Below are positions 5,246-61,184 of a stretch of DNA of 64,000 nucleotides, one piece after another. This DNA is from a virus. Where the stretch lies: positions 20,003 through 84,002 of the IMG/VR virus record IMGVR_UViG_3300009149_000019; one strand, written 5' to 3'. The translations under genes were made by a program, and so were the position numbers. The notes below the pieces were generated by a model. It did no database searches. It was not told where the DNA came from and saw only the letters and a program-made list of their open reading frames with translations. Each line of letters starts with the position of its first letter. Position 1 is the stretch's first letter.

Positions 5246-6673
5246 ATGACAACCATATGGTGCTTACTTATTCCCCCAAGTGAATGTAAGTATCTTCATA
5301 AAAAGATAGAAATGACTACAGTACTAATGGAAGAAAATGGGCATAGGCCCATTTTTTCTATCTTTGGGAGTGAGTTTCCAATAATACGAATACAGAAAAA
5401 GTATCCGTATTACCTAATTACTGTAGACAAAGAGGTACCCTTTGGGTGCACGGAGGTTACGTGCAATGTTACATTTACTCTATCCCAGATTGTGTGTGGG
5501 ATTCATGTGAGGGTGCCAATAAGGAAGAGAGCGCTGTTCAATAGAAAGCAGGAAATTGACAGCATGAGCAGATCCGATGCGGTCCCTTACCTCATGCATA
5601 AGTTAGACTATGGGATGAGTGTCTCGTATAAAGAGATGTATAGTGTGGTATCTACCCTGTTCTATAAGATAGATGCGGGGGCGATGACACACTACCTTTT
5701 TATTAAAAAGGTAGTTAGTGCTGGCTATAGCTCAAAGCTATTAGTGTGTTGTATTAATTACTGGGATAAGAACCACAGTCTCGGATCATTCCAAGGACTT
5801 CCCCTCATAGCCGTGCTGGAAGCCTTATACGCTTTCGGTGCGAATCGAAAGCTTGTGGTAAAGGCAGTGGCTATCATGTTTAAGAAATTCCACATGTCTC
5901 ATGTGATGCTAACAGACCATCAGTTTCCAGTGCCTTTCTTTAGGAAGCTTGGGTGTCCGAAGGAGCTTGAGTTTCTAATGATACATACTAGGAACGTGGA
6001 AAGCCTAGTAACGGACCTCTCGACCATAGCAACACCGGACAGCATCTATGGTGTTCTGAAGAATGGATCTTCTTTTTACTTAAGAAGATTAGCCAAGGAG
6101 ACGGGTAATCATGATCTTGGGTTATGTAGCCTACAGACGGATAGCGCCCTAGGCTCTATCAGGGCTGCATACGATAGAAAACTAGACCTGAATGAGATCA
6201 TACCAAATGCGTACCATTCCTATGGCAAGGACGCACGGGCAACTATGATGGGTCTAATAACTGATAGTGTTCATCAGTGCTTATCTCGCACGAACATATA
6301 TGGTAGTTCAGAGGTGGCACTACGTTTTCTTCCGGAGAACCTATTTAGTACTGGGTGGCCGACACAAAACTCGCAAAAGTTTGTGGACATTCTAGAAAAG
6401 CTCTTACGTGGGCAAGCACATTTGCTTGACGATGAAGTGCTAAAGTACCTTCTTACTACAAACAATTCCTTTTCTAGTGATCCGTTATACAGGCACTCTG
6501 TATTACGATGTATCACTAATGATACACGGATAGCTCAGGTGTTACTCAGAGTCACCCCGGATAAGGGGGAGATTATAGCAGCATTTAGGAAAAAGAGAAG
6601 AACGTATAAAAATGCCTACGCTACTATGCTAAAGAGGGTTCTTAAAGAAAGAAAAAAGAGAAAGGAGAAATAA
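5246..6673 (+). CDS. Hypothetical protein, N-terminal beta domain plus helical body
   Basis: 475 residues behind AAGAGGAGGGG. The first ~95 residues look beta-rich, the remainder helical, and the last ~45 residues are strongly basic (RKKRRTYKN..., then Lys/Arg-rich to the end), which could bind nucleic acid. No recognised domain. Its stop codon shares one base with the next start (TAATG). Layout resembles the preceding gene. Function unknown. Confidence 0.75.
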   Translation: MTTIWCLLIPPSECKYLHKKIEMTTVLMEENGHRPIFSIFGSEFPIIRIQKKYPYYLITVDKEVPFGCTEVTCNVTFTLSQIVCGIHVRVPIRKRALFNRKQEIDSMSRSDAVPYLMHKLDYGMSVSYKEMYSVVSTLFYKIDAGAMTHYLFIKKVVSAGYSSKLLVCCINYWDKNHSLGSFQGLPLIAVLEALYAFGANRKLVVKAVAIMFKKFHMSHVMLTDHQFPVPFFRKLGCPKELEFLMIHTRNVESLVTDLSTIATPDSIYGVLKNGSSFYLRRLAKETGNHDLGLCSLQTDSALGSIRAAYDRKLDLNEIIPNAYHSYGKDARATMMGLITDSVHQCLSRTNIYGSSEVALRFLPENLFSTGWPTQNSQKFVDILEKLLRGQAHLLDDEVLKYLLTTNNSFSSDPLYRHSVLRCITNDTRIAQVLLRVTPDKGEIIAAFRKKRRTYKNAYATMLKRVLKERKKRKEK

Positions 6674-7167
6674 TGGAATTAGAAAAAGAGAAACTAAAAG
6701 AAATGAAAGAATTTCTTACTAATAAGAGGAAGGAGTCTGGGTTTGAGTGGATAGTTAATAAAGACTCGGATAGTGTGGGCCCAAGACTGGCACACTATAT
6801 CATGAACGACTGGAAGGACCTCGATTGGTATGCAGATGAAGATATAGCCATACTTCTAGACGGGTTTCGATACTCTAGTACCTTTGAAGACACTTCACGT
6901 CTTTTTCATGCGCTAGTGTACGTGAGCATCTATTATATCCATGATGCATACACTAAAGAGAGGGTCATGGCTGGCGTTCGCAGAGCGCTAGGAAGCATGT
7001 CCTCATCTAATCTTAAAATGTTATTGTTGTATAAAGAGGCACCAGAACGCCTTCAGGCGAGCATCTCTGAGCTTCTGAAGGAGAGGGGAAACGATGGGAA
7101 AAAAGAAAAAAAGAGTAAAGTTACCAGAAGAAGCGGCAAAGGAGATACTGCAGAGTCTAGAGGATAG
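6673..7167 (+). CDS. WxDxDWY-family protein
   Basis: 164 residues. Around residues 38-56 it carries the block HYIMNDWKDLDWYADEDI shared with the proteins at 7538, 28794, 51798 and 59941. After it comes the family's ~55-residue helical stretch and then a copy of the short helical module (SSSNLKMLLLYKEAPERL...). It has only the last of the (I/V)RxxYY-type repeats. The last ~25 residues are Lys/Arg/Ser-rich and lie in the 74-base overlap with the next gene. Function unknown; paralogy within the window is clear. Confidence 0.8.
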   Translation: MELEKEKLKEMKEFLTNKRKESGFEWIVNKDSDSVGPRLAHYIMNDWKDLDWYADEDIAILLDGFRYSSTFEDTSRLFHALVYVSIYYIHDAYTKERVMAGVRRALGSMSSSNLKMLLLYKEAPERLQASISELLKERGNDGKKEKKSKVTRRSGKGDTAESRG

Positions 7168-7525
7168 AGGGTTCTTCACATTAATGGCTAAGGCTGGTGT
7201 AAACCCTACCTACTCTTCTGAAATAAAAGAAGTTGTCGATGACATGTTTACCTCAGGGTACACACACGGGCGCGAAGAGGGCTTTGATGCCGGATACGAA
7301 GACGGCTACAACGAGGGGAATGCAGACGGAAAAAAAGCAATGGAAGAGGTAGCGTATGAAATGGCCTTTACTGCCCTCAAGAAACAAATTGTAGATGGTG
7401 TTCTATATGCTTTATTAAAAGATTTAAACAAGGGCCATCCATCCATTATGAGGATGATCCTAATGAAGCATGGCAAAAATGATGTACTTAGGGAAGTCAT
7501 CAAAAGGGTCATGGCTGAAAAATAG
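7094..7525 (+). CDS. Small protein with GxxxG-type repeats
   Basis: 143 residues; start ATG lies inside the previous gene, preceded by GAAGGAGAGGGG, so the 74-base out-of-frame overlap is well supported. Residues ~55-85 hold a run of aromatic/Gly four-residue steps (GYTHGREEGFDAGYEDGY and onward), similar to the GxxxG helices of FliH or Yae1-like proteins, which mediate helix packing. The C-terminus is the shared helical module (SIMRMILMKHGKNDVLREVI). Basic first ten residues. Function unknown. Confidence 0.7.
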   Translation: MGKKKKRVKLPEEAAKEILQSLEDRGFFTLMAKAGVNPTYSSEIKEVVDDMFTSGYTHGREEGFDAGYEDGYNEGNADGKKAMEEVAYEMAFTALKKQIVDGVLYALLKDLNKGHPSIMRMILMKHGKNDVLREVIKRVMAEK

Positions 7526-21959: not shown

Positions 21960-24884
21960 ATGTTTGTAACAATGCTTCCCCAAAAGGAGCTAATTTCTCT
22001 TCCGGAGGTGTCCTCCACCAAACCTTATAACAAAAACAAATTGTTTAGTGCTGATGGGCTATACTCCGAACAGATCTTTGGTCCTGTTAACGACTATCAG
22101 TGTCAGGATAAGATGTTTATAGGAAAAATCCATGAAGGAAAGATTTGTCCGAAGTGTGGCGTAAAGGTTACCAGCAGTTTGGAAAGATTCAAGAATTTCG
22201 GGAAGATAACCCTTCCTCTCAGAATCATTCATCCGTATGCGTTCCCGTTTCTAACGAGAGAGTTTGGTCAGTCAGTGGTCAAGGCTATATCGAATGGGGA
22301 GAAGTTCTATAAGGTAGTAAATAAAAAACTAGAGCTTGTAGAAGAAGAAGATGTCGACGGTGGAACAGGTGGAGAGTTTCTATTCCACGTTATAAGCAAG
22401 CTTGGGTTTAAGGATAAGAAAACAAAAGATTTTATCATGTTATATAAGAATGAGGTGTTCCCTCAGTACCTTCCAGTTATTCCAGTAGGTGCCAGGAACA
22501 TGCTTAAGGTTGATAACGTGGTAGTTGTTGATGACATCAACAACGTGTATGTCCGGATTCTTAAAAAGAACCAGGCAATGGCACGTGTAGTAGTCATGGA
22601 CAAAAGTCTTTTATCAGAATACTATGAAATCCAGAGCTTCGTTGAGGAGCTTTTTCAGAAATTGGAAGAGAAGATTGGAAAGAAGAAAGGCCTAATCAGA
22701 CAGAATCTTCTCGGAAAACGTGCAGACTTCTCATCCAGGGCAGTCATTGTTCCAAGCCCACACCTTCCTTTGGACAAAGTGGAGCTTCCCCTTGCTATGT
22801 GCAAGGAGCTGTACAAGTTCCATATCCTATCCCATCTTATAAACAAGGTAAAGGTAAGTGCTCTTAGTGCATTAGAGCGCCTAGATACTATGACGGATGA
22901 TGAGTACCTGGACATCTTGAACGAGATAACAGCAACCAGCTGTGTTATCTTAAACAGACAGCCTACCCTTCATAGGATGGGTATGATTGCATTTTATCCT
23001 ATCGTCAAAAAAGATACGAACGCTATTGCGATTCCTGTGCTAGCGTGCCCACCGTTTAACGCTGATTTTGATGGTGATCAGATTGCTGTTTACCTTCCTT
23101 TATCAGAAGCAGCGCTTGATGAGGCGCGTGGATCACTTCTGGCAACCAACCAAATCATTTCCCCATCTAATAGGGATATCACCTTTTTACCAAGCCACGA
23201 CATCGTTCTGGGGTTATACAAACTTACAAAGTTTGGACCGAAGCCTCGGTCTAGGGCGGTTTCTATCAGTGACACTATATCTAAAGAAGAACTCCTCTCA
23301 ATTAAAATGGAGTCAACTGTTACATATAAAGGCCGTAGAACGACAGCGGGGCGTGTCCTTTTTAATAAGGTGATCCGTGAGCTGGTAGACTTTGTTGACA
23401 TACCAGTCACGAAGAACGTACTGTACTCAATAATGAAAGACGAAAGACTTCGACCACACCTGTCTGTACTGATAGACGAGATCAAGAACATGGGGTTCTA
23501 CCTTACTACAAGGATAGGATCATCCTTCGCAGTCTCTGACTTTATTCTTAAGGGGACTGCACAGAAGAAGAGTGCCATAAAAGACGTACGCGATATGAAA
23601 GAGATTGAGAACCTGGAAGCTCTAATGATTGAAGAGCTAAAGGATAATGATGTGTTTGACATGATTAAATCAGGAGCTCGTGGAAGCTTTGAACAGGTCA
23701 GACAGATCTCCTTATTTAAGGGCTTAGTGACTGATGTTGTTGGCCAGATTCAGTCTGAGCCTATTAAGCACGGATTGCTTGAGGGGCTCACACCTAAAGA
23801 GTTTTTCAGATCCAGTTACGGTTCTAGGAAAGGAGTCGTAGACTCTTCATTAAACACTGGCCAGTCAGGACACCTAACAAGGAAGCTGGTATTCGCACTT
23901 TCTCCTTGTATTGTTGATTATAGCAACAGTGACTGTAAATCAACAAGATACTTTGATATTGAGGTTACTACACCCATACTTCCATTTCTTAAGGATAGGT
24001 ACATCCTTGTTGGAAACAAAGAGGTAAAGATCTCTAACTCAGCGCCCTATCTTGGAAAAACGATTAAGTTAAGAAGCCCTATTCACTGTAAGGGTGAGCA
24101 TGGTTTCTGTAGCAAGTGTGTAGGACACTTTCCATGGGGGAAAGAGATAGGCATAATGGCAGCCCAGGCAATGGGAGAAAGAGCAACCCAGATGACACTG
24201 CGTACATTTCATACTGGTGGAATTGCTAAGTCAGCCTTAGGTGGAATCCTGGACAAGCTAAACCACCCAGCCCTAGACCTTGAGGGTGCTACGATCGTAG
24301 CACGTAAAGATGGATTTCTTACTCTTCTTTCTGATGAAGATGATGATGAGGGAGGGGAGAGTGTGGATGGTATGTACCAAATTAAGATCGGTAACGACAC
24401 CATCCTGATTGAGAGTGTTCCAGAGATAGATATCTTTCACGTAGGTAAATTTATTTCAGGAACAGCACTCCTCCAGGTTAATTTCAGAAATGATGATATA
24501 GTATCTGACCTAAGACAGCTCAGGTTGGTACTTGACAATAAGAATGTATGTAAGCAGTTCATCGGACCAAACTTAGGTGCATTGCTTACAGAACTCATAG
24601 AGGTGTTTACAAACTATGGCATGATTGACATCGTGTTTTTGGAGACACTCTTAAGCCAGCTAGCCAGAGCAGACGGAGTACACCTTCGTTTTTCAGATAA
24701 ACAGTTTCCGGATGATATGAAGACCCTGTCCTCACTACCACTATCTTCCTCGATCATACAAGGCATGTCCTTTGAAAGATTTAGGAGTGCAGTTACTAAA
24801 AGCTTGGACATGGTTAAGGATGGCACCATAAGCCCAAACAAGACTGTATCTGTTTTAGAGAGATTGCTTCTCTTAAAGTTCTGA
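21960..24884 (+). CDS. DNA-directed RNA polymerase beta' subunit, unsplit
   Basis: 974 residues in one frame. N-terminal half zinc ribbon ICPKCGVKVT; RQNLLGKRADFSSRAVI; ILNRQPTLHR; catalytic NADFDGDQ at residues 367-374, whose three Asp hold the active-site Mg; a C-terminal zinc cluster with CKGEHGFCSKC (~709-719) joined to the trigger-loop region MAAQAMGERATQMTLRTFHTGG. It is shorter than bacterial beta' (~1200-1400), lacking lineage inserts. With beta it forms a phage multisubunit polymerase. Unlike phiKZ- or AR9-type jumbo phages, the subunit is not split in pieces. Confidence 0.96.
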   Translation: MFVTMLPQKELISLPEVSSTKPYNKNKLFSADGLYSEQIFGPVNDYQCQDKMFIGKIHEGKICPKCGVKVTSSLERFKNFGKITLPLRIIHPYAFPFLTREFGQSVVKAISNGEKFYKVVNKKLELVEEEDVDGGTGGEFLFHVISKLGFKDKKTKDFIMLYKNEVFPQYLPVIPVGARNMLKVDNVVVVDDINNVYVRILKKNQAMARVVVMDKSLLSEYYEIQSFVEELFQKLEEKIGKKKGLIRQNLLGKRADFSSRAVIVPSPHLPLDKVELPLAMCKELYKFHILSHLINKVKVSALSALERLDTMTDDEYLDILNEITATSCVILNRQPTLHRMGMIAFYPIVKKDTNAIAIPVLACPPFNADFDGDQIAVYLPLSEAALDEARGSLLATNQIISPSNRDITFLPSHDIVLGLYKLTKFGPKPRSRAVSISDTISKEELLSIKMESTVTYKGRRTTAGRVLFNKVIRELVDFVDIPVTKNVLYSIMKDERLRPHLSVLIDEIKNMGFYLTTRIGSSFAVSDFILKGTAQKKSAIKDVRDMKEIENLEALMIEELKDNDVFDMIKSGARGSFEQVRQISLFKGLVTDVVGQIQSEPIKHGLLEGLTPKEFFRSSYGSRKGVVDSSLNTGQSGHLTRKLVFALSPCIVDYSNSDCKSTRYFDIEVTTPILPFLKDRYILVGNKEVKISNSAPYLGKTIKLRSPIHCKGEHGFCSKCVGHFPWGKEIGIMAAQAMGERATQMTLRTFHTGGIAKSALGGILDKLNHPALDLEGATIVARKDGFLTLLSDEDDDEGGESVDGMYQIKIGNDTILIESVPEIDIFHVGKFISGTALLQVNFRNDDIVSDLRQLRLVLDNKNVCKQFIGPNLGALLTELIEVFTNYGMIDIVFLETLLSQLARADGVHLRFSDKQFPDDMKTLSSLPLSSSIIQGMSFERFRSAVTKSLDMVKDGTISPNKTVSVLERLLLLKF

Positions 24885-24903
24885 GCACAGGAGGCTATAC
24901 TAT

Positions 24904-27900
24904 ATGAACGGCATGAACATCTATCCTTTTGAGAGAACGTCACCCCTGCTGGACTACTATGCGTTTGACATTGACATCCTGCAGAAAAAGATCTTTACAC
25001 TATTTAAGCACCTGGAGCATACAGGGCACGTGAAGGTCTTGAGCATCTCTCATAATCTGAAACCAAAGCAGACACGATACTGCTACCTGTATCCTACAGA
25101 TACTTTTTCGATCAGAGTTAAGTGTACAATTGATGAGATTGACAAGACCTTCCTGCTGCACATCCCCAGGATGATAAATAGAAAGTTTACCATCAATGGG
25201 TATGAGAACATTCCCATTTTCCAGATGGTGGATCCTGCTGTTGTAGCCAGACCAGGTCATATCTTTGTAAGGTCAGCCTTTAACGATTTGTCAGTAGTAT
25301 ATAATGAAAAACACTGCCAGGTCTACGCATTCAGGAAAAAGATGACACTGTCTACCATACTGTTTGCAGTGCGTGGATTCCGGAAGGCATGTAAATATTT
25401 TGGGGTGAAAGTTAGTAAGGTCAAAAGCTTCACTAAAGGAGACTCCAGAGCAAACAAGATGATCTTAAAGGACCAGTGTATAGAGATCCTAAACATGGAC
25501 GCACTTGATCCAATAGGGCAGTTGGTATTTAGGACAGCATGTTATGAAAAGTACAAGGACGTCCTTGAGACATTCGGAACGGACGAGTTCTTTATTGGAA
25601 TGCTAGGTAACCATTTTTTTGATAAGCGGAACTTCATGAAGAAAGGTGAAGAGATCCTTGAGAGTTTTAAGACTGCTTTCTTTGATCCGATCACAAAAGA
25701 ACAGCTTAACTATAACGGGGATTTCTTCAAATTCATGGTTGATCTTCTCACACAGTACCTGAACACTCAGGCTTATGACTTCTTAGATCTTGAGCGTAGA
25801 GTGATCAGGCTGGAAGATTATATCCTTGTTCCATTATTTCAAAAGATATTCTCAATAGTCAGGGTAAGTATGAAATATCCTCAAAGGGTACATCATATAA
25901 AAATAAAGCCTGATGAGATGACAGGCTCTTTGTCTAAGCCAGAGTTACAGCCTTTAATTCAATATGACTCTTCTCTTAATCCGATAGGAGAGGTTTCAAC
26001 TTTCTTTAAGTGTTCCATCTTTGGGATCAGTGGCCTGCAGAAGAGTCAAGTGTCAATTGCGATGAGAAATATTCATCCATCTTACTACGGGTCTATTTGT
26101 CCAATTGATACCCCAGATGGTCCCAGTTGTGGTGTGGTTATGAACCTGGTTCCGACTGCACAGCTTAACATTGAAGACGGTAAGTTGGAGATAGATAGAG
26201 ATCACGAGACCAGAGACATAGTTTCCCTACCAGTAGCCACCATCCCATTTTTGGAAAGAAATGATGGTGTCCGTCTCCAGATGGGAGCTAACCAGAGTGA
26301 GCAGTCAAAGATACTTGATGTCACCGAGCTTCCGACTATTCAGACAGGAGCAGAGCATCTGGTAGCAAAAATGTCTACTTTTGTTAGAAGAAGCCCAGTA
26401 GACGGTATTATTTCCTTCATTAACAAGAACTTCATTGTTGTAAAAGACGAGGCTGGTAAGCATCACCTGGTTGATGCTCGTGACGAGTTCACGAGAAGGA
26501 AAATGTTCAAGTCGTTTGACCACCAGGTAACCATAGGCCAGAAGGTCAGAAAAGGGATGATCTTATCTGCTGACAGTCGGTGTATCAAGGATGATAAGGT
26601 TACTCTTGGTAGAAACTTAAAAACCTGCTTTTTCTGTTATGAGGGCAACACTTACGAAGACGCGATTGTTGTATCAGAAGAAGCAGCAGAAAAGATGTCA
26701 CATTGGGAATACAACGTGACAGAGCTAACGATTGGAAGGAATGAGACTTTGCGTGAATATAATGGAAAGTTCTTTCCTGCGGTAGGAGAAGTTACCAAAG
26801 ACGGGGTGCTCACTGAAAAGCAAACGATAGACCCGGAAATACGGTTCCTGTTTGACTACGACAGGGAGACAGAAAAAATAGCAGTGCCTCCCGGTTCTGA
26901 GGTTGTTGATATTCGTGTGTATGTTAATAATGAGCACGAGCTACAGCCTGAGCTTAAGGAGTACATAGATGCCCTGGTTTGTCAGCAAATGACAGATGAG
27001 CGTTCTCAGTTCAACACCATAAAAAGGTTTGTTGAGGATCCGGACCTGCTGGCATACCATAAGAATAATACATTAAAAAGTCACCGTATAGGAAGATTTT
27101 ACGGGGTTGACCATTTTGAGGGTGTCCTATTCAGAATCTTTACAAAAAGACGGTGTACTCTGATGAAGGGTGACAAACTTGCTAACAGGGCAGGAAACAA
27201 GGGCGTTGTGTCTGCCATTCTTCCAGTTGATCAGATGCCAAGAGGAGAGGATGGGGTACCCTTCGAGATCTGCTTGAATCCAATGGGTATTATTACCAGG
27301 ATGAACACCGGCCAGTTATTTGAAATGACACTGGGAACTGCATGTAAAGAGATCACAAAGCGTATGCAAACCCTTCCTGAGGACAGGGCTCTGGACTTTA
27401 TGCTAGAGATGATTGAGCTAGTTGATAATACAGAGGAGCACTGGTATTCTATCCAGGCTAAGGATCATGTTAGTTCACTAGAACCACATGCAAAAACTGC
27501 GCTGTATAACAAAGTGTGTACTGATGGGCTTCAGCTATATCAGCCACCATTTGCGTCCATCACCCTGGATAACTACATGAAATTGGTGGAGATACTTGGA
27601 ATTTCTGAGAAGGAACATCTATTTATTCCTGAGCTTAACACAACAACGTCTGACCCTGTTGGCTGTGGATACACTTACGTACTAAAGCTTCTGCATACAT
27701 CAGAAAGTAAAATTCATAGCAGAAGTATAGGTCCATATTCTCAGATTACTGGACAACCTTTACAAGGTAAGCGTAACCAAGGCGCTCAGCGCTTAGGTGA
27801 GATGGAAATTTGGGCTCTTGCTGCACACGATGCCGACGCCACCGTTAAGGAGATTTTAACCATTAAGAGTGATGATATTGCTGGACGAAAAGCAATGATC

Positions 27901-28026
27901 AGGAACTTCTTAGACGCAACTCCTATTTCGATGTCCTCCTCAGAAGAGTCTCTATCTAAGACTATTTTTATGGCATACATGAAAGGCCTTATGATAAAAT
28001 TAGAATCTTCGGAGGTAGGTCTATGA
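24904..28026 (+). CDS. DNA-directed RNA polymerase beta subunit, unsplit
   Basis: 1040 residues, full length in one frame, 19 bases after beta'. Motifs in order: IHPSYYGSICPIDTPDGPS (fork region, ~400), the lysine-bearing GDKLANRAGNKGV (~757) with QMPRGEDGVPFEICLNPMG, and near the C-terminus RSIGPYSQITGQPLQGKRNQG and GEMEIWALAAHDA...LTIKSDDI. These are the standard beta motifs, in order beta' then beta, reverse of the bacterial rpoB-rpoC order. No alpha, omega or sigma gene was found in the window, so either they lie elsewhere or the enzyme works without them or borrows host subunits. Confidence 0.96.
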   Translation: MNGMNIYPFERTSPLLDYYAFDIDILQKKIFTLFKHLEHTGHVKVLSISHNLKPKQTRYCYLYPTDTFSIRVKCTIDEIDKTFLLHIPRMINRKFTINGYENIPIFQMVDPAVVARPGHIFVRSAFNDLSVVYNEKHCQVYAFRKKMTLSTILFAVRGFRKACKYFGVKVSKVKSFTKGDSRANKMILKDQCIEILNMDALDPIGQLVFRTACYEKYKDVLETFGTDEFFIGMLGNHFFDKRNFMKKGEEILESFKTAFFDPITKEQLNYNGDFFKFMVDLLTQYLNTQAYDFLDLERRVIRLEDYILVPLFQKIFSIVRVSMKYPQRVHHIKIKPDEMTGSLSKPELQPLIQYDSSLNPIGEVSTFFKCSIFGISGLQKSQVSIAMRNIHPSYYGSICPIDTPDGPSCGVVMNLVPTAQLNIEDGKLEIDRDHETRDIVSLPVATIPFLERNDGVRLQMGANQSEQSKILDVTELPTIQTGAEHLVAKMSTFVRRSPVDGIISFINKNFIVVKDEAGKHHLVDARDEFTRRKMFKSFDHQVTIGQKVRKGMILSADSRCIKDDKVTLGRNLKTCFFCYEGNTYEDAIVVSEEAAEKMSHWEYNVTELTIGRNETLREYNGKFFPAVGEVTKDGVLTEKQTIDPEIRFLFDYDRETEKIAVPPGSEVVDIRVYVNNEHELQPELKEYIDALVCQQMTDERSQFNTIKRFVEDPDLLAYHKNNTLKSHRIGRFYGVDHFEGVLFRIFTKRRCTLMKGDKLANRAGNKGVVSAILPVDQMPRGEDGVPFEICLNPMGIITRMNTGQLFEMTLGTACKEITKRMQTLPEDRALDFMLEMIELVDNTEEHWYSIQAKDHVSSLEPHAKTALYNKVCTDGLQLYQPPFASITLDNYMKLVEILGISEKEHLFIPELNTTTSDPVGCGYTYVLKLLHTSESKIHSRSIGPYSQITGQPLQGKRNQGAQRLGEMEIWALAAHDADATVKEILTIKSDDIAGRKAMIRNFLDATPISMSSSEESLSKTIFMAYMKGLMIKLESSEVGL

Positions 28027-28481: not shown

Positions 28482-28794
28482 TCTTAGCTCTTTAGGTAAA
28501 GCATGCGGCTTGGGTAGTGGTGCTCAGACATCTGGAACGGTGGCTACGTGCAGTAGTAGTAATATTGGTACGTATTATGCAGGAAGTACATACACAACAG
28601 TTTCTTATCCTTCGGTAGAAGAGGTTACCGAACTCAAAGAGACAGTAGACTTTCTGTCACACATGATTGTGTTACTTGCCCCTACAGCTCAACTTAAGAT
28701 AATGCTTCTTTTGCCTAAGACACCTGAGATAGTAAAAACAGCAATAAGGGAAAGACTTAAGATTCCTATGGATAGCCAGGAGGGAGGACTATAA
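28465..28794 (+). CDS. Small protein with Ser/Thr-rich N-terminus and shared helical module
   Basis: 109 residues from ATG 28465, five bases after AGGGAGG (the in-frame ATG 28420 has none). First ~55 residues are Ser/Thr/Gly-rich and probably disordered, then a helix and the shared module (LAPTAQLKIMLLLPKTPEIV, followed by KTAIRERLK). Overlaps both neighbours. Function unknown. Confidence 0.65.
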   Translation: MAMSSNLSSLGKACGLGSGAQTSGTVATCSSSNIGTYYAGSTYTTVSYPSVEEVTELKETVDFLSHMIVLLAPTAQLKIMLLLPKTPEIVKTAIRERLKIPMDSQEGGL

Positions 28795-37048: not shown

Positions 37049-37444
37049 ATGTCAAGCTTGAAAAAATATTTAGACTGTTTTATTGTATCTGTGCCTACTT
37101 TCCATGTTTATATTCCAGCTGAGCACATCATGCAGATAGGTGGGATAATTAGTGAGAAAAGTTCCAATGGAGAAACTATTTATATTATTAAACTTCATCT
37201 TAAAGACATTGACAGTCCTACGAAACTCCAAGTGGCAGACGTAGATGACGCTAGAAAGGTTATAACTCTTCTCTATAAACAGCTAAGTCGTTATCATTTA
37301 TTTAAGAATGTGATTTCCATGATGGGATCAGTTCCCCCATCAGTTTTAAAAAACATGCTGTTAAGCTTAGATGGGGAAGATCCATTAAAAGATATGATTG
37401 TTGCAACACTGTCAACTCAGGAACGAGAGGAAAATAACAAATAA
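37049..37444 (+). CDS. Hypothetical protein with shared helical module
   Basis: 131 residues behind TGGAGG. Beta-rich first half. The C-terminal ~45 residues are a good copy of the shared module (VPPSVLKNMLLSLDGEDPLK, then DMIVATLS). No other domain recognised. Confidence 0.68.
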   Translation: MSSLKKYLDCFIVSVPTFHVYIPAEHIMQIGGIISEKSSNGETIYIIKLHLKDIDSPTKLQVADVDDARKVITLLYKQLSRYHLFKNVISMMGSVPPSVLKNMLLSLDGEDPLKDMIVATLSTQEREENNK

Positions 37445-50612: not shown

Positions 50613-51850
50613 AAGGTACAAAGAGTGTGCCTAACAAACCAAAGACAGTTGAGCATGAGTTAGCTGTTACTAAACATGCTCTGGAGATGGTAACAAAGGA
50701 AGCTAAAGATACTAAAAAGACACTGTCCGGTGTCCTTTCTTATGCTATTGATCATCTTGATCATGATCAAGTAGTGAGGTTGATTAGCTCTCCAGTTGGT
50801 AAATACAGGGCAGATGCTACAGCATTACGTCTAATATGGGAGCTTGCTGAGAGCTCACATCAGATTACCAGAGGAGAGCTAGAAGACATCATATTCGGAA
50901 AAATCTTTGATAATGGGAACATTAAGGCCCTTCTAACTCTTATTGAAGTAACTGGCGGGCTTGTCTTTACGGAAGAGCCTTCTTTTTTTGAGTGTCACGG
51001 ATGTCATAACCTTCCTTTCTATCGGGTATTAGCAGACAATATTGAAAATGGCACAATACACATGAGTGTATCTCAGAGGTGGAAACTATTTACTTCTTTT
51101 GTGACGAGACTTCCTAGTAAAACAAAAGATATAATTCGTATGTCAAATCTTGTACCTGATACGTACTCAAGGTGGGATAGCGAGGCTAAGACAGACCTTA
51201 ACCGTGTATTGTGGTTAGTATCTCCGAAGGTGGTCGACCACCTTTTTGAAAAGGAATGGCCGGTTAATCTAGATGCTGTCTTGGGTTACGTTATTTATCA
51301 TGATACCTATAAAGATAAGTCAAAGGGAAGCCTTATTAAGTACCTTATATACAATGGAGCTACTCTTTGTATTGGTGACACGTCTGACCTGTTTACTCCT
51401 GATAGAGTTAATAGCAGTGATGAGTGCCTTGTTAGACTTAACTTTGTGGTAGACAATAAGTTAATAGTCACGAAAAGACCGCCAATTTCAAAAGAGGGTA
51501 TTGAGTTCTTATTTACTAAGGCTCATACAGCTAAACTGATTAAAAAGGCCCTGTCTCTTATCAAGAAGCCTGGTACACTACAGATTATTTGTAACGCGTT
51601 TGAGCGTGCTAGAAGGACTAGTAATAACTGGAGACTTTCATCAGATAATGTCGTATATACGACAACTACTAGCTTTTTTAAGTTACATTCATCAGCTGTC
51701 TTGGCAAGATGGTTACTAGAAGATATAGCTTGTCCTAATGTACATGAAATCTTACGTAATGTTTATGCAAAAAAGAGAAAACCAAGGAGGAAAAAGAATG
51801 ACGAACGAAGAAATGCTAACAATCCTGACGTCCAGACGAAAGAGAGTTAA
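50609..51850 (+). CDS. Helical repeat protein, tandem paralogue B
   Basis: 413 residues; ATGA overlap with paralogue A. Basic N-terminus, coiled coil at ~15-40, helical body, C-terminal module copy (SSAVLARWLLEDIACPNVHE), then a basic tail that overlaps the following gene. Paralogous to the protein encoded at 49395; function unknown. Confidence 0.75.
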   Translation: MKGTKSVPNKPKTVEHELAVTKHALEMVTKEAKDTKKTLSGVLSYAIDHLDHDQVVRLISSPVGKYRADATALRLIWELAESSHQITRGELEDIIFGKIFDNGNIKALLTLIEVTGGLVFTEEPSFFECHGCHNLPFYRVLADNIENGTIHMSVSQRWKLFTSFVTRLPSKTKDIIRMSNLVPDTYSRWDSEAKTDLNRVLWLVSPKVVDHLFEKEWPVNLDAVLGYVIYHDTYKDKSKGSLIKYLIYNGATLCIGDTSDLFTPDRVNSSDECLVRLNFVVDNKLIVTKRPPISKEGIEFLFTKAHTAKLIKKALSLIKKPGTLQIICNAFERARRTSNNWRLSSDNVVYTTTTSFFKLHSSAVLARWLLEDIACPNVHEILRNVYAKKRKPRRKKNDERRNANNPDVQTKES

Positions 51851-58712: not shown

Positions 58713-58747
58713 AGGAGAGAGGCGGTGTGGCCCTCTGCCTCTCTCCT
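58713..58747 (+). other. Perfect long hairpin, weak T-run
   Basis: 11-bp stem AGGAGAGAGGC (58713-58723) / GCCTCTCTCCT (58737-58747), followed only by TAT. Probably a weak terminator or an mRNA-stabilising end; the GGAGAG strand could also mimic or mask ribosome-site sequence. Confidence 0.6.
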
Positions 58748-58774
58748 TATAACCAAATAAGGAGGATTTTTACT

Positions 58775-59623
58775 ATGCCACACGAAATGTTACGAAGGGC
58801 AATTACGGAGTTTAGAGAAAAGAAGGGAATCAATAAAAAGGATACGGCTACTATTCTTAAGATCCATAGAGTAACTCTCAGTAGACTTGAGAGCGGAATA
58901 ATGGAGATTTCTCCTGAAAGAGAACAGGAGCTTCTTACTCTGATTAAGACGTTATCTTCTGAGCCAACAGAAAAAGTTGTTTTTAAGACGAAGAAAGATG
59001 TAGCTGCTGCTATAAAGAAGACCGAAGCGTATCTTGCTTCAGAAGAAGGGGTATCTGCAATGAAAGAGCAAGCCAGTAAGTTTAAGGACACTGAGCGTCC
59101 AACAACGATGCCAGAAGAGTTTTCTTCAAAAAGATCAATTGATCAGAGTGAGATGCAGCTCTCACCACCAGTTGTAGAGATTGCATACACGTCTGTTGTC
59201 ACTAAGTCTCTGTATGAGAAAAATGGTGGGATAAAGACAGAGGGCTCAGTTGGGTTCGACCTGGTTGCTGCCAATGACACAGTTCTTCTAGAAGGTAACA
59301 CCTATATGATAGACCTTGGTTTGATTGTTAAGCCACCAGCAGGATATCGTATTACTATTTATCCTAGGAGTTCCACGTTCTCTAAGTTTGGGCTAGTTCA
59401 GACCAACAGTGTTGGAGTAATAGACCCCGACTACTGCGGAGAGCTTGATGTACTAAAATGGCCCTGTAAGTGTATTGAAAGATCAGCTACAGGGAAAGTA
59501 CTAAAACAAGGTACTCCGATTGCTCAAATGGTTCTTGAGAAGGCTCGTACGTTTACAACTACTACCTTTGTTCCTAATAAAAGATCCCGTGGAGGATTTG
59601 GTAGTACTGACGAGGGGAAATAA
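58775..59623 (+). CDS. XRE-type HTH fused to dUTPase
   Basis: 282 residues from ATG 58775, behind AAGGAGG (an in-frame ATG at 58727 lies in the hairpin). Residues ~5-55 are an XRE-type HTH (INKKDTATILKIHRVTLSRL). After a linker, residues ~130-282 are a trimeric dUTPase with SVGFDLVA, YPRSSTFSKFGL, NSVGVIDPDYCGELDV, QGTPIAQMV and RGGFGSTDEGK, motifs 1 to 5. It should hydrolyse dUTP to dUMP; the HTH suggests a second, regulatory role. The uracil theme recurs in the UDG-polymerase fusion. Confidence 0.9.
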   Translation: MPHEMLRRAITEFREKKGINKKDTATILKIHRVTLSRLESGIMEISPEREQELLTLIKTLSSEPTEKVVFKTKKDVAAAIKKTEAYLASEEGVSAMKEQASKFKDTERPTTMPEEFSSKRSIDQSEMQLSPPVVEIAYTSVVTKSLYEKNGGIKTEGSVGFDLVAANDTVLLEGNTYMIDLGLIVKPPAGYRITIYPRSSTFSKFGLVQTNSVGVIDPDYCGELDVLKWPCKCIERSATGKVLKQGTPIAQMVLEKARTFTTTTFVPNKRSRGGFGSTDEGK

Positions 59624-59940: not shown

Positions 59941-60567
59941 ATGCACACTTTACAAAATCAGATGATAACTCTGGATATCCCTGACTCTTGGGAGGATGTA
60001 CCAGGTACTTATAAACAGATAAACTATATCCAGGCAACAGACTCCTGGAAAGATCCTTCTATTCCAGAGAATTTTCCAAAGGAATCTTCTTCCCTAATAT
60101 CATTCATTAAGTACAGACATTACCAAGCTATAGGATGGAAGGATGATAAAATTATTGAAGATTCAAATTTCCTGATAAGATTTGAGTTTTATGAGAGAAG
60201 TGAGTGGAAGGACATACGTGCTAAGCGAGATGAGAAATGGGAGATCAGGCTCTTCTATTATTTCATGAACAACTGGAAAGACTATGACTGGTATAGGGAT
60301 GAATAGCTTGAGCTGGTTATTTTTGGATTTGCTACTGCAGTAGAATTTAAGATGAACAGTGAGTTTTACTCAGCCATTAACCGTGTTCTTCACAACTGTG
60401 AACCACATTATACCATTCCCATTGACAAATGGTACCTTATAGCTAGCCACCTTAGTTCTGGAGTTATAAAGCAGATGCTTTTACAGGACTATCCGTATAA
60501 GCAATATACAGATTTGTTAAGAGAAGAGCTTAGTAAAAGAGATCATAAAAATGGAGGTCCCCTATGA
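59941..60567 (+). pseudogene. WxDxDWY-family gene interrupted by one amber codon
   Basis: From ATG 59941 the frame gives four (I/V)RxxYY-type units ending in NNWKDYDWYRDE, then TAG at 60304-60306. The same frame continues without any other stop to 60567 with LELVIFGFATAVEFK and a module copy (SSGVIKQMLLQDYPYKQY). That downstream part aligns residue by residue with the family after the WxDxDWY block (28794: DLEIVKMGIASCSRFK). The TAG replaces exactly one codon. The ATG at 60352 has no ribosome site, so the second half is not an independent gene. Either a nonsense mutation or readthrough; a truncated 121-residue product is otherwise expected. Confidence 0.8.
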
Positions 60568-61184
60568 AAAAAAGTGCTCTTATTATTGTTGATCCGCAGA
60601 AAGATTTCTGTCCTGGAGGAGCTCTACCGCTTCCTGGAGGGAATGAGATAGCCAGTTATATTCTTGGTCACCTGTTTCACTACCCATTTGATCTTATGAT
60701 CGTTAGCAGAGACTGGCATCCGAAAGACCACACGTCTTTCAAAGTTGATGGGTGTGATGAGAGAGGTATATGGCCACCACACTGTATACAGGGAACATCT
60801 GGGGCTGCCTTATTGTTTATCCCACCTTACAATGTTCTTCTTGCTACAAAGGGAGATAACCCTTATGAACACCCGTATCCTGCTATGAAGGCCCATATGG
60901 ATGATGCGCCTGATACCATGGTTCCGTCTCTTCTAAAAAGTAAGAAGATTGACTCTGTTTTTGTTGGTGGTCTTGCACTTGACTTTTGTGTTAAGGATAC
61001 GGTCCTTGATCTACTAAAAGAAGGATATGAGACATTCTTGATGCTTGATGCCTGTCGTGGACTCGGCCATGCTACAATGACTGATGCTGTACGTGAGATG
61101 GTTGAGGCTGGTGCTAAGCTAACTTATATCAAGAACGTAGAGCAACTTGTGAAGTCGAGACGGAAAGATGACAGTCCTGGGTAA
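60564..61184 (+). CDS. Nicotinamidase/isochorismatase-family hydrolase (PncA-like)
   Basis: 206 residues, ATGA overlap with the end of the interrupted frame. IIVDPQKDF (D10), ATKGD (K96) and LALDFCVKDT (C142) form the Asp-Lys-Cys triad; SRDWHPKDH supplies metal ligands, and PPHCIQGT fits PncA. It should turn nicotinamide into nicotinate in NAD salvage. Phages carry such genes with NAD metabolism sets, possibly to rebuild NAD after host NADase defence; no other NAD gene is in the window. Confidence 0.88.
   Translation: MKKSALIIVDPQKDFCPGGALPLPGGNEIASYILGHLFHYPFDLMIVSRDWHPKDHTSFKVDGCDERGIWPPHCIQGTSGAALLFIPPYNVLLATKGDNPYEHPYPAMKAHMDDAPDTMVPSLLKSKKIDSVFVGGLALDFCVKDTVLDLLKEGYETFLMLDACRGLGHATMTDAVREMVEAGAKLTYIKNVEQLVKSRRKDDSPG

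Follow-up and report, generated by a model that had tools for sequence, protein, structure and literature searches.

An in-frame amber codon within a helical-repeat gene

The window analyzed here comprises 64,000 nucleotides and corresponds to bases 20003-84002 of IMGVR_UViG_3300009149_000019, a linear virus record of 84,002 bases without end repeats. At position 59941 it carries a gene whose reading frame is interrupted by one amber codon (cf. Table 1). Coordinates and frame were re-derived, and both agreed with the preliminary description, in which the two halves share one frame and the TAG at 60304-60306 is the sole internal stop. The 86 codons past the TAG contain VLHNCEPHYTIPIDK, and their TGA (60565-60567) overlaps the ATG (60564) of the following isochorismatase-like gene as ATGA.

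Table 1 Features of the interrupted gene, its neighbor, its paralogs and other proteins discussed in the text. Positions are those of the window, except where an L label precedes them.
Feature	Position	Strand	Evidence or remark
First ORF (121 aa) with an N-terminal extension followed by helical repeats; ends in DWYRDE, stop TAG	59941..60306	+	Shine-Dalgarno (SD) AGGAG upstream; homology to four paralogs
Two intact 23-residue repeats (WKDDKIIEDSNFLIRFEFYERSE, WKDIRAKRDEKWEIRLFYYFMNN)	60136..60273	+	Sequence; helices in model
Last repeat, WKDYDWYRDE-TAG-LELVIFGFATAV, broken in inter-helix loop	60274..60342	+	Sequence, alignment, AlphaFold
In-frame amber codon replacing a variable polar residue	60304..60306	+	Alignment column; predicted structure
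Same-frame continuation, 86 codons and TGA: second helix of last repeat and C-terminal module	60307..60567	+	Codon score, profile
ATG-started ORF within second half, 71 aa; starts inside domain, no ribosome-binding site	60352..60567	+
Isochorismatase-like (nicotinamidase-type) gene, own SD GGAGGT	60564..61184	+	Pfam PF00857, E 1e-14
Intact paralog, 159 aa	28794..29273	+	Gapless alignment
Intact paralog, 164 aa	6673..7167	+	Gapless alignment
Intact paralog, 303 aa	7538..8449	+	Gapless alignment
Fourth intact paralog, more diverged, 378 aa	51738..52874	+	Gapless alignment through TAG
Other proteins with the C-terminal module (37049 and 7094 weakly)	37049-37444, 7094-7525; L033:9788-10960, L032:217-1251		C-terminal profile
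MK(I/V)RxGFV(S/A)NSSSSSF proteins	54527, 55352, 55696, 56382, -3076 (upstream of window); L031:2688-3095

Genes were predicted with a codon-usage score trained on long open reading frames, which yielded 102 genes. On this score the second half of the interrupted gene reached +0.12 per codon with no stops, and the other five frames of the same DNA all scored negative, with 4-12 stops each. Among the 102, this was the sole gene to be followed by a long extension that looks coding and is free of overlap with other genes. Compared with a profile of the second halves of the other family members, the second half scored 21.7 bits, while none of 2000 shuffled versions exceeded 9.2 bits, and in a leave-one-out scoring of the family it ranked 10th of 15 with 22.0 bits (range 4.6-54.2). 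Its codon usage is normal and it contains no second lesion. Judged by its sequence, the second half is thus no more decayed than those of other family members, and the stop must therefore be recent, tolerated or bypassed; the lack of decay fits a very recent mutation and equally fits a long form that is still being made. The absence of a ribosome site for the second half, claimed earlier, was borne out: no Shine-Dalgarno match precedes the ATG at 60352, which is the first in frame past the stop, compared with matches of at least 4 bases in 86 of the 102 genes.

The repeat family and the column of the stop

The family comprises five members in the 84-kb record, at 6673, 7538, 28794, 51738 and 59941, and its paralogs are mutually 23-29% identical at the protein level where compared. 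Using a profile search, we found one related virus, the nearest relative detected, in the record IMGVR_UViG_3300009149_000020 (82,826 bases; hereafter G001), whose RNA polymerase subunits are 60-62% identical to those encoded here (62% for the beta subunit) and whose DNA polymerase is 48% identical. G001 carries 12 members of the helical-repeat family, six of them in tandem (L031:9593-15924), an arrangement that suggests expansion by duplication.

The gapless alignment reported earlier with the paralogs at 28794, 6673 and 7538, in which the TAG takes the place of one residue, was reproduced and extends to the paralog at 51738 and to the 12 genes of G001. In these 16 homologs, four from this record and 12 from G001, the column of the TAG is occupied by D, D, E, D, N, E, S, D, S, N, E, T, M, S, H and S, that is, in the alignment it is a variable, polar position. 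All 16, which are paralogs or distant homologs, have a sense codon there and possess the downstream part; a 330-aa homolog in G001 spans the TAG in a single tblastn alignment (31% identity over 174 columns, E 3e-19). Hence, when the related phages were compared for retention of the TAG, as had been proposed, the stop was kept in none of the 16, and homologs consistently ending at this position, which would have refuted the earlier description, were looked for and not seen, since all continue into the second half.

The uniqueness of the stop was also apparent on a larger scale. About 20.8 kb of this record (about 6,900 codons) could be aligned to G001 proteins, and the TAG at 60304 was the sole in-frame stop inside a real gene. 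The other stops in these alignments were discarded, as an ankyrin alignment starts ahead of the gene's ATG and two further ones concern antisense open reading frames; the reverse case, a stop in G001, was not encountered. Close relatives of the gene at 59941 or of its neighbors were absent from the viral contigs and the phage collection, and an exact DNA pattern spanning the TAG had no match in viral contigs, a set from which near-identical records may be missing. Among genome contigs, a match in an Actinomycetota metagenome-assembled genome (L011) was rejected as a chance frame in a contig of 61% GC. No family members were detected in 34 further RNA-polymerase-bearing virus contigs, and the family, seen only in this record and in G001, looks lineage-specific at the level of sequence. 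The window contains two adjacent genes of multi-subunit RNA polymerase beta type (21960-28026), and the lineage is distant from the phages of the annotated collection, with a best identity of about 30% and only one near relative found in IMG/VR.

Predicted fold and the C-terminal module

The read-through product, with the TAG entered as Q and an alignment of 17 sequences, was modeled with AlphaFold as an all-helical solenoid (mean pLDDT 84.8, about 93-98 over residues 71 to 150), in which each 23-residue repeat (W-K-D-x-x-A-x-x-D-x-x-x-x-I-R-x-x-Y-Y) forms one short and one long helix. In the model of the last repeat, the DWY motif forms the short helix and LELVIFGFATA the long helix, the two being joined by a loop that contains residue 122, the position of the TAG; termination there would thus deprive the product of the final solenoid helix and of the C-terminal part. 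The preliminary description had placed the TAG exactly inside a conserved domain, and it does interrupt a conserved repeat; however, the site is not the middle of a separate domain but the loop of the last solenoid repeat, before its second helix. The predicted fold resembles HEAT/ARM-like alpha-helical solenoids in its tandem short and long helices and its repeats of about 23 residues, but differs from them in that the family has no significant match in Pfam or PHROGs and none at E <= 0.001 in structure searches of the PDB and viral structure libraries. Weak Pfam and PHROGs matches (E2-E1mid, Osw5, Prefoldin_2 and others) fell below the cut-off, and leucine-rich-repeat-variant (LRV) repeats, suspected from motifs such as NNPLDPVA, were supported neither by Pfam nor by the fold search.

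A profile built only from the C-termini of other members of the repeat family matched the C-termini of ankyrin-repeat proteins of G001 (E 1e-6 and 2e-5) and, weakly, those of the window proteins at 37049 and 7094 (E 0.002-0.003); among reversed-sequence decoys, the best E value was 0.38. The copy at 60307-60564 is weak against this short profile (E 0.52) and clear against the profile of the whole downstream part. A module of about 35 residues (hydrophobic-P/S-x-x-hydrophobic..LLL....h..hh...L) is thus common to the helical-repeat family and to ankyrin-repeat proteins in the two related phages, and the second half of the interrupted gene plausibly carries it as well. The combination of a repeat scaffold with a shared C-terminal module suggests, purely by analogy, that these may be adaptor proteins.

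Origin and decoding of the amber codon

As stated earlier, TAG is not globally reassigned in this phage, since it terminates 31 of the 102 predicted genes (TAA 49, TGA 22); under the standard code, the coding density is about 91% and the non-coding fraction 8.6%. A suppressor tRNA had been proposed as a check, and the search of the 84-kb record with ARAGORN and Rfam revealed neither a CUA anticodon nor any tRNA gene at all. In G001, at least 21 tRNA genes of differing anticodon form an array (L035:387-2469), none of the 21 with CUA; as this array is near the contig end, that of the present phage may be located in DNA outside the record. Two acidic residues precede the TAG and the base C follows it, both of which are contexts favoring readthrough in E. 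coli; a C follows five of the 31 TAG stops of the record, so its presence here is not special. Downstream of the TAG, no stable RNA structure was found beyond that of shuffled sequences (z 0.11 and -0.74, folded without pseudoknots).

On these findings, the stop probably originated as a recent nonsense substitution that struck a single member of an expanded and redundant family of phage helical-repeat proteins. Such a substitution is the simplest account because of the redundancy of the family, the variable column, the unique occurrence of the stop and the lack of decoding signals. The codon itself is read directly from the sequence; as to its history, a point substitution would have converted one variable polar codon to TAG. 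The main product would then be a protein of 121 residues consisting of the N-terminal repeats and half of the last repeat, without the final helix and the C-terminal module, and the full-length form would arise solely from whatever amber misreading occurs at background level in the host. Such a loss could be tolerated because the paralogs would cover the function, and the mutation would be recent enough for the second half to have remained undecayed. The locus resembles a premature amber mutation in a multigene phage family in that (i) a single in-frame stop occupies a non-conserved position, (ii) both flanks are intact and (iii) intact paralogs are present, and no feature distinguishing it from such a case was found. 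Of the three options listed in the preliminary description, the nonsense substitution fits all observations, because of the sense codons in 16 of 16 homologs, the tolerant column, the redundant family and a stop that is unique in the record, while amber suppression and regulated readthrough gained no support. A counterpoint to the nonsense substitution is that an intact second half with normal codon usage is also predicted by maintained readthrough.

We regard it as unlikely that the codon is subject to functional readthrough or amber suppression, in which some ribosomes would insert an amino acid at the TAG, by means of a host or phage suppressor tRNA or by near-cognate misreading, and thereby produce a short, repeats-only form and a long one. 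In its favor, the column takes many polar residues, so that whichever amino acid a suppressor inserted would probably be accepted; the second half is coding-like and shows no decay, and its ATGA overlap with the next gene gives the impression that it still belongs to a coupled operon; the full-length product is confidently predicted to adopt a single fold; and a tRNA array like that of G001 may lie in unsequenced DNA. However, none of the 16 homologs keeps the stop, the two records, both of which are fragments, provide no tRNA with a CUA anticodon, no RNA structure follows it, and no other gene is split likewise, though this would be expected for a suppressor-bearing phage. In phages known to reassign TAG, the coding density under the standard code is low and a suppressor tRNA is often encoded; of the predicted code-15 phages, 52% have one with a CUA anticodon (PMC11210395); TAG is read as glutamine (code 15) in crAss-like phages and is reassigned in Lak megaphages (PMC11210395, PMC9523058). 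The present gene is similar to these cases in having an in-frame TAG within a conserved phage gene, but differs from them because TAG ends 31 of 102 genes, the coding density is about 91%, one gene only is split, and the search of the 84-kb record for a suppressor tRNA revealed none. Programmed readthrough, first found in Q-beta and exemplified by the MuLV gag-pol UAG with its 3' pseudoknot (PMC8310308), likewise involves a single in-frame stop between coding parts of the same frame, but here no stimulatory RNA structure was found and the stop is not conserved in homologs; in bacteria (E. coli), readthrough has been described as rare relative to frameshifting (PMC5373646). Highly improbable, in our opinion, is a controlled form of amber readthrough, effected for example by a suppressor tRNA from an unsequenced array, that would switch a solenoid adaptor between a short product and a long one, only the latter bearing the C-terminal module found on several of the phage's ankyrin- and helical-repeat proteins, with TAG being a normal stop elsewhere.

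An error of assembly or consensus, or the entry of a minority variant into the consensus sequence, with the real gene intact, is likewise a doubtful explanation. The record is a metagenomic virus contig, and a single wrong base would be enough, the rest of the gene being undamaged; however, the approximately 6,900 codons aligned to G001 show no other frame break, so the assembly looks clean, and the paralogs are too distant from each other for cross-assembly. Translation of the second half as a separate gene by reinitiation at the ATG at 60352, 15 codons past the stop and in frame, is hardly credible, since this ATG lacks the Shine-Dalgarno match that most genes have, a start there would remove the conserved LELVIFGFATAVEFK helix, and no homolog is split (16 compared).

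Taken alone, one nonsense codon in a phage gene that has redundant copies is nothing unusual. Were it read through, this locus would be a rare instance of amber readthrough confined to one gene, in a DNA phage for which TAG is elsewhere a stop. Of greater use, as a by-product of this analysis, is the description of the expanded helical-repeat family and of the C-terminal module that it has in common with ankyrin-repeat proteins, in a phage lineage with a multi-subunit RNA polymerase. Two further observations concern other loci of the window: a helix-turn-helix domain is fused to a dUTPase in a single open reading frame at 58727-59623, and several small, otherwise different proteins, four of them located between 54527 and 56711, share the N-terminal motif MK(I/V)RxGFV(S/A)NSSSSSF.
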